This document shows positions 6,859 to 10,819 of a stretch of 11,205 bases of DNA, piece after piece. The notes beneath the pieces were generated by a model, which made no database searches, was not told where the DNA came from, and saw nothing but the letters and a program-made list of their open reading frames with translations. Numbering within the stretch: the first letter of the stretch is position 1; each line of letters opens with the position of its first letter. The DNA is from an uncultured Gammaproteobacteria bacterium (GTDB lineage: Bacteria > Pseudomonadota > Gammaproteobacteria > Rariloculales > Rariloculaceae): assembly GCA_946887385.1 (NCBI GenBank), contig CAMPKU010000145.1:1-11205 (forward strand). The letters are read 5' to 3'. The position numbers and the translations under genes are program-made.

Positions 6859-8400
<1,542 letters not shown>

Positions 8401-8421
8401 TCAGTTTCAAAGAGCACGCGA

Positions 8422-9282
8422 ATGGCTAGCGGTAAAGAAATTCGGACCAAGATCGCCAGCGTCAAGAGCACGCAGAAGATCACGAAGGCGATGGAAATGG
8501 TCGCCGCGTCGAAGCTGCGCCGCACGCAGCAGCGCATGGCCGCTTCGCGTCCCTACGCCGATAAGATCAGGACCGTGATCGGCCACTTGTCGCAGGCGAA
8601 CCCGGACTATCGCCACCCGTACCTGCAGAAGCGCGAGATCAAGCGCGTCGGCTACATCGTCATCAGCACGGACCGCGGCCTCGCCGGCGGCGTCAACACG
8701 AACACGTTTCGCGAGATGCTCAAAGAGCTGCGCCAGTGGCAAGCCAAAGGGGTCGAGGCGGATCTGTGCCTCGTCGGCGCCAAGGGCATCGCGTATTTCC
8801 GCCGCTTGAAGGTGAACGTGGTTGCGGCCACCAGCCACTTGGGCGAAGTGCCGAAAGTGCAGGATCTGGTGGGCGCGATCACGGCAATGACGGACGCCTA
8901 CCGTCAGGGCAAGATCGACCAGTTGTTCCTCGTGCACAGCGTGTACGTGAACACGATGAGCCAGCAGCCGACGGTTTCGCAGCTGCTGCCCGTCGAAGCC
9001 GTCGATAAAGACTCGCTGCAGCAGCATTGGGACTACATCTACGAGCCCGACGCCGCGTCGCTGCTCGATGGCGTGCTCGATCGCTACATCGAGTCGCAGG
9101 TGTATCGCGGCGCCGTCGAGAACGTGGCCTGCGAGATGGCGTCGAAGATGGTGGCGATGAAGGCCGCCACCGACAACGCCGGCAAGTTCATCGAAGGCCT
9201 GCAGCTGCAGTACAACAAAGCCCGCCAGGCGGCCATCACCCGAGAGATCGCCGAGATCGTCGGCGGCGCGGCGGCGGTGTAG
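8422..9282 (+). CDS. atpG: ATP synthase F1 subunit gamma
   Basis: Gamma is the central rotor shaft that links the c-ring to the catalytic head. The 286-residue protein is one residue shorter than E. coli gamma. The N-terminal coiled-coil helix begins [20 protein letters not shown] and continues [14 protein letters not shown]. The Rossmann-like middle domain contains [13 protein letters not shown] (about 78-90). The C-terminal helix includes [20 protein letters not shown] and the family signature [14 protein letters not shown] at the end. There is no insertion of the kind that carries the redox switch in chloroplast gamma. AAAGAG at 8409-8414 is a moderate ribosome site, 7 bases before the ATG. 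Immediately after the TAG stop a large palindrome begins (9286), separating atpG from atpD by 157 bases, unlike the short gaps elsewhere in this operon. Confidence 0.97.
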
Positions 9283-9285
9283 TGA

Positions 9286-9413
9286 GGCTGACCAGCGTGC
9301 ACACGAAGAGGGGTTTCCAGGAACGCCGTGAATACGTCCATGTAGGCTCGCTCGCGGGCGTCCGTGCGGGCTAGCGTCCTGGAAACCCCTCTTCGTGCGC
9401 ACACTGGTCAGCC
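9286..9413. repeat. Large palindromic element between atpG and atpD
   Basis: The left arm (9286-9326) and right arm (9374-9413) are reverse complements over about 40 positions. There are 10 matches, one C/A mismatch (9296/9403), 4 matches, one A/C mismatch (9301/9398), a perfect 21-bp run (9302-9322 with 9377-9397), a bulged A at 9323, and 3 more pairs. The loop of 47 bases (9327-9373) holds two diverged copies of a 16-base unit. The element starts 3 bases after the atpG stop and ends 9 bases before the atpD ribosome site. No T-run follows, so it is not a standard intrinsic terminator. I see no transposase, no convincing target-site duplication and no second copy in this window. It could be a REP- or MITE-like dispersed element or an RNA processing hairpin. 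Confidence 0.9.
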
Positions 9414-9422
9414 GACTTATTT

Positions 9423-10819
<1,397 letters not shown>

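Follow-up and report, generated by a model that had tools for sequence, protein, structure and literature searches.

The window (the whole 11,205-nt stretch of DNA analysed here) bears an inverted repeat between atpG and atpD, with arms of 37 nt at 9286-9322 and 9377-9413 that are 95% complementary and lie 54 nt apart. The region is organised as follows, R1 and R2 being the covariance models described below:

8422 to 9282, + strand: atpG (gamma subunit), full length; an ORF of 286 aa whose best relative aligns over residues 1-286 with 70% identity
9286 to 9413, + strand: the whole YPAL-like palindromic element, its core in sense to atpG and atpD; identified by the inverted repeat, the fold (z -10.4) and models R1 and R2
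9286 to 9322, + strand: 5' outer arm, with an outer part particular to the window copy; from the inverted repeat and from the DNA matches listed, which lie within 9308-9391
9325 to 9347, + strand: core hairpin 1, GCC(GTGAA)TACG-TCCA-TGTA-GGC; from compensatory changes in other copies and the R1 match
9349 to 9376, + strand: core hairpin 2, a variable stem with TCC in the loop; from the structure of other copies and the R1 match
9377 to 9413, + strand: 3' outer arm; from the inverted repeat
9423 to 9430, + strand: likely atpD Shine-Dalgarno sequence AGGAAGGA, outside the palindrome, as judged from reading the sequence
9440 to 10819, + strand: atpD (beta subunit), an ORF of 459 aa

The atpG-atpD gap (atpG end 9282, atpD start 9440) measures 157 nt, and the palindrome starts 3 nt past the atpG stop and leaves the atpD ribosome site free, in agreement with the coordinates of an earlier note on this DNA. 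That note had also described a near-perfect 128-bp palindrome with a 21-bp perfect run, and both descriptions hold: the longest perfect stretch of the arms is 21 nt, starting at 9302, and the ungapped inverted-repeat score is 31, whereas 40 dinucleotide shuffles of 9001-9700 reached at most 12. The RNA fold of 9280-9445 reaches -97.8 kcal/mol versus -56.1 +/- 4.0 for 200 shuffles (z -10.4), none of which was as good. The "40-base arms with one bulge" had to be corrected to 37 nt, ungapped, and the middle 54 nt, which had been treated as a spacer, contain the most conserved part of the element. No target-site duplication was evident by eye in the flanks of the element. At the very start of the window (positions 1-56), inside an ABC-transporter reading frame, there is a perfect inverted repeat, 24 bp long and with 8 nt between its arms; it looks like a fold-back artefact at the contig end.

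The central 72 nt of the palindrome are a member of a dispersed family and contain two hairpins with TCC loops, closed by the arms. Copies inspected singly share the same plan: inside a copy-specific outer stem, a bulged hairpin whose loop is RTCC is followed by another hairpin, whose stem varies and whose loop is of the TCC type. Covariance model R1, made from 57 copies with the window copy excluded, matches positions 9314-9387 with 68.6 bits (E 8.9e-17), which is its sole match in the window at E <=10; in the alignment to R1, hairpin 2 of the window copy is imperfect, with two non-standard pairs marked. Among the same 57 copies, 88.3% of the cells are paired versus 67.4% after shuffling, the covariation score is 0.551 versus 0.177 shuffled and 0.08-0.11 with slid partners, and 335 cells are double-changed versus 103 shuffled. 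The number of pairs changed on both sides (19, reached by 161 of 500 shuffles) and that of further pair types (60, reached by 47 of 500) are unremarkable, so that the case for a conserved structure rests on the paired cells, the double-changed cells and the score. With a looser core pattern, present in 17 of 369 genomes, stem positions of hairpin 1 were seen to covary (TA/TA, AC/GT, TC/GA, CC/GG, GA/TC) with few exceptions, e.g. TA/CG and CC/GA.

Sixty copies had been picked, those of genomes G106, G271 and G174 being thinned beforehand, and three truncated or aberrant ones were removed before A1. Since the copies in A1 and A2 were collected by a pattern fixing part of the core, invariance at the fixed core columns is partly by construction, while the outer stem and hairpin 2 were free. 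A helix of 3 to 53 pairs (median 27) encloses the core in 106 of the 109 folded copies, window copy included; two of the 110 collected copies were too near a contig end and were skipped in folding. When 99 atp loci (860 kb) were scanned with R1, one other strong match was obtained (L028:7882-7953), the next best reaching 15.8 bits. The L028 copy, a family member of another gammaproteobacterium, lies in sense orientation downstream of atpC and ahead of the next gene.

A described repeat with the same core is YPAL, for which PMC2759123 prints a sequence under its own name, RU-2, for what De Gregorio et al. 2006 call YPAL. The reverse complement of RU-2 contains the core of the window element, and the published sequence aligns to the window with a score of 176, versus a maximum of 145 in 2000 shuffles, gaps breaking the alignment outside the core. 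In Rfam the corresponding entry is RF02770 (Ysr224). Model R2, which was made without the three Yersinia proxima copies and whose other genomes may include Enterobacterales, scores the window element at 69.1 bits and recovers, at E 0.012 or better, 29 of 30 enterobacterial Ysr224 loci (L238-L267, from Yersinia, Pectobacterium, Rahnella and Mixta; L259 was missed). The Rfam Ysr224 model itself gave no match in 9200-9500 of the window up to E 10, against a curated threshold of 70 bits. The best Rfam rows for the window were mir-448 (24.9 bits, cut-off 90) and mir-188 (19 bits, cut-off 72), which mirror the presence of a long hairpin. With a loose cut-off, cmscan found Ysr224 in 10 of 15 copy-bearing loci, with E from 7e-4 to 0.7 and all under the gathering score. 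At E 1e-3, Ysr224 was present in 4 of 10 enterobacterial genomes (Yersinia proxima 30, Pectobacterium aroidearum 15, Mixta 15, Rahnella 1), and its cut-off was exceeded only in Yersinia proxima and Pectobacterium aroidearum. Yersinia alsatica gave no match among the 150 of 426 candidates scored, and none of 14 control genomes was matched. RF02770 is named as a Yersinia sRNA, yet it acts as a dispersed repeat: a single Yersinia genome has 30 matches, and its core is that of RU-2/YPAL.

The window element and YPAL/RU-2 thus have in common a three-way-junction core, CGCCGTRAATAC-RTCC-TGTAGGCTCG, followed by a second hairpin with an ATCC loop, as well as a long closing stem, an intergenic position and a dispersed occurrence, the copies of the window family being those seen in other genomes. 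They differ in length (128 nt versus about 168 bp for YPAL/RU-2) and their outer arms are unrelated. Unlike YPAL/RU-2, the window copy lies inside an operon and has no target duplication evident by eye, and its nearest AtpG relative (70%) is from a gammaproteobacterium that is not an enterobacterium. YPAL is reported to favour sites just downstream of stop codons, and this trait is shared by the window copy, 3 nt past the atpG stop. PMC2229807 describes YPAL as a mobile element of Yersinia and Erwinia carotovora with target duplications of 3-26 bp, places its targets at or beside dyad symmetries and mentions a possible effect on RNA stability. PMC3733652 counts YPAL among the MITEs for which transcription is reported, along with either stabilisation or faster decay of mRNA, and the counts given in PMC2847712 cover Yersinia species and three copies in E. 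coli. On sequence comparison, the Yersinia YPAL/RU-2 (Rfam Ysr224) is one branch of the family to which the window element belongs. The element had been put forward earlier as a candidate for something undescribed. The family is described in Yersinia, and in this respect the proposal mostly fails, but the literature searched, which is short of most subscription journals, contains no report of a YPAL-type family outside Enterobacterales; a literature search by core sequences likewise found no paper on the repeat.

Copies occur in many genomes. A sample of 369 genomes was drawn from the class to which the nearest relative belongs; 32 of them contained DNA relatives of the element at E 1e-3 or better, and all matches listed from this search fall within query positions 23-106, i.e. 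window 9308-9391, which is the middle of the palindrome with the inner arms. The exact core pattern GTGAATACRTCCMTGTAGGCTC was present in 9 of 12 chosen genomes, with 222 copies in G271 and 35 in G106, and the reversed control pattern had no occurrence. Of 45 genomes to which atp loci led, no more than 2 contained the exact core. In the order of the nearest relative, 4 of 19 genomes had 24-35 R1 matches at E 0.01 with 150 candidates scored per genome (G010 24, G011 35, G012 28, G013 25); G008 had three and G023 one, which was weak. The nearest genome, G001, contained no R1 family member among 150 candidates scored. A DNA search of seven genomes of close atp loci, G001 included, matched six at E <=1 with a best value of 0.07, and these matches were taken as chance. 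Plasmids contained no DNA match to the element or to copy L115, phages gave only two records of one phage (30 nt, E 3e-3, taken as chance), and three patterns had no match in viral contigs.

In G106, 25 of the 35 copies have a same-strand stop codon no more than 60 nt from their approximate left end, and 7 of 35 show the mirror arrangement. Since most of these copies sit just past a same-strand stop, the window copy is typically placed. A bias towards one strand beyond about 1.18 Mb in G271, apparent among the matches listed, was discarded: the full sub-pattern list is mixed, with 19 forward and 15 reverse. In G012 (L298-L305), YPAL-like cores occur as divergent pairs of about 0.4 kb end to end, and inverted pairs are likewise found in G010 (L306-L309) and at L313 and L314. 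The flanks outside the core pair align as inverted repeats in 7 of the 8 G012 loci, with scores of 27-105 (11 for L305) that have no shuffle control. The paired cores are possibly a larger mobile element, of which the single cores would be a part.

The outer arms vary between copies and yet mostly tend to keep their complementarity. Over arm positions 6-25 of the 35 G106 copies, pairing is 83% for two arms of the same copy and 68% for arms of different copies, and the left arms of different copies are 58% identical; in some copies the arms pair poorly (L172 40%, L155 60%). Several copies in G174 and in G010 have nearly identical arms, as would be expected from recent spread.

The atpG-atpD gap was compared among relatives, as the earlier note had also called for. 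In 95 other atp loci the gap has a median of 47 nt (range 14-197), 74 being shorter than 90 nt and 21 at least 90 nt long. L091, whose gap reads N, was excluded from this count, L005 and L097 are the same locus, and the gap of L012 is approximate, its atpD match starting at residue 44. Gaps of at least 90 nt are more frequent between atpG and atpD (21/95) than in four other atp gaps pooled (25/289; Fisher P 9e-4), the atpF-atpH and atpH-atpA gaps, of which one each was recovered, being left out; kinship is ignored in all of these gap statistics. In G010-G012 of the nearest order, the gaps are short and element-free (L104 51 nt, L102 51 nt and L103 70 nt). A protein search with ParB returned metagenomic relatives (best 99%), which supplied no gap sequence.

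Other loci have other repeats at this site. The locus with the closest AtpG among the best 80, L001 of genome G001 (70% identical), bears in its atpG-atpD gap a different dispersed palindrome with GTGAGACG repeats, which has 48 matches in that genome, both strands counted, and recurs at a single position next to the opposite end of atpG. The gap of Yersinia proxima L078 contains ERIC (score 341 versus a shuffle maximum of 131), whereas the comparison of the Yersinia alsatica L080 gap to ERIC (110 versus 127) did not pass. ERIC (RU-1), a dispersed enterobacterial palindromic repeat, resembles the window element in kind and in site. The remaining long gaps differ from each other by eye, and R1 found no core in other long atpG-atpD gaps among the 99 atp loci scanned. 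In the L012 gap (about 181 nt), a CCCGCGAAGGCGGGAATCC-type repeat recurs in copies that are direct and partly inverted; the gaps of Pantoea L063 (154 nt) and Mixta L071 (119 nt) are rich in hairpins. The atpG-atpD gap appears to be a permissive site for repeats, and we infer that these were gained anew and not inherited. In relatives the site is either short or occupied by hairpins of another kind, which argues against an old conserved device.

The sequence comparisons support the reading, already offered in the earlier note, that a dispersed palindromic repeat has a copy here in a permissive place, through the R1 membership of the element, its multi-copy relatives in other genomes and the other repeats in the gaps of two relatives. 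In its place, the long near-perfect RNA stem between the gamma and beta genes could be thought to serve the operon: RNase III would cut it and split an atpIBEFHAG mRNA from atpDC, so that beta would be made in excess of gamma. Folds of -30 kcal/mol or lower are indeed found in the atpG-atpD gap of 17 of 95 other loci, but they also occur in 12 of 90 atpA-atpG gaps and are thus not confined to the gamma/beta boundary; moreover, the gap is under 90 nt in 74 of 95 other loci, including L102, L103 and L104 of the nearest order, and the core belongs to a genome-wide repeat that is not specific to atp. We consider this model unlikely as an account of the element. Still less probable is a transcription terminator or attenuator within the operon. 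A strong stem past the stop codon is followed by a loosely U-rich stretch, GACUUAUUUAGG, which however is interrupted and separated from the stem by 3 nt, and atpD and atpC follow downstream in the same direction. A terminator scan gave no site on the + strand in 8400-9900, but it takes loops of 3-8 nt and is blind to the stem of the palindrome. Least credible of all is a fold-back artefact of assembly or amplification. It would recall the artefact-like 24-bp inverted repeat with its 8-nt spacer in the first 56 bases, but the centre of the palindrome matches an independent repeat family (E 9e-17) with the expected structure, the arms contain mismatches and the flanking genes are intact.

A relationship to other repeat classes was also considered, the earlier note having named REP, NEMIS and MITE. 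The match found was instead YPAL/RU-2 (Ysr224), and no consistent link to Y1 (RAYT-type) proteins emerged. The window element is palindromic and extragenic, as GTAG/CGTC REP repeats are, belongs to a multi-copy family and has a GTAG word in its core (9342-9345), so that one might suspect a REP/REPIN-type repeat with a RAYT transposase as its mobilising enzyme; Y1_Tnp proteins are encoded in 12 of 14 family-bearing genomes. REPs, as defined in PMC3733652, are 20-40 bp long with a terminal tag, the GTAG type being RAYT-linked, and some GTAG/CGTC REPs are nested in longer palindromes. The window element, with its long arms, measures 128 nt, and its GTAG lies within a hairpin and is not a terminal tag. 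The 30 Y1_Tnp loci of the 12 genomes were scanned with R1, and a single partial core was found, at a contig end in a genome with several copies, while G013 (25 family matches) and G422 (30) have no Y1_Tnp match. RAYT was accordingly rejected as the mobilising enzyme, and a REP-type origin is improbable, about on a par with the terminator. With the NEMIS/Correia elements of Neisseria the comparison is one of possible working alone: they are hairpin repeats, and RNase III action on their transcripts is proposed in PMC2229807. TwoAYGGAY RNA, another candidate, is absent from the cmscan matches listed for the window and for 15 copy-bearing loci. Its loops resemble the reverse complement of those of the window element.

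Taken as a whole, the palindrome is very probably one copy of a hairpin repeat that is dispersed in Gammaproteobacteria and probably mobile and non-autonomous, and any effect on RNA would be a by-product of its tolerated insertion. The conserved centre of the repeat is a three-way junction, in which a long outer stem closes two stem-loops, the first of them short and each with a TCC-type loop. Such a copy would have arrived behind the atpG stop by transposition, and the insertion was probably tolerated because atpG, atpD and the atpD ribosome site were left intact. The element would be transcribed within the operon mRNA and fold into a stable RNA hairpin, and the predicted stem may protect the mRNA upstream of it against 3' exonucleases, or RNase III may cut it. 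It is plausible that RNase III cleavage or a barrier to 3' exonucleases could shift atpG and atpD mRNA levels, but such an effect would not mean that the atp operon has long been regulated in this way.

A wider proposal can be made tentatively, and we hold it to be possible but on balance doubtful. YPAL may be the enterobacterial tip of a class-wide set of mobile repeats defined by their structure, the single-strand three-way junction being recognised by some structure-specific recombinase. The arms would be free to change, their complementarity being kept by intrastrand template switching or by selection, and the atpG-atpD gap would be a preferred landing site. The inverted core pairs of the nearest order, found in elements of about 0.5 kb that seem to have terminal inverted repeats as their boundaries, could point the way to this recombinase.

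The family is already described in Yersinia, and the window copy is a divergent variant in an unusual place. A repeat known from Yersinia is thereby extended to a much wider set of Gammaproteobacteria, in which a covariance model detects it in places missed by the Rfam model, and its long arms are shown to diverge while retaining complementarity. The results also suggest that hairpin repeats unrelated to each other are taken up by the atpG-atpD gap, in an operon that is among the most conserved. This gap would thus provide a natural test of the effects of intra-operon hairpins on stoichiometric gene expression.
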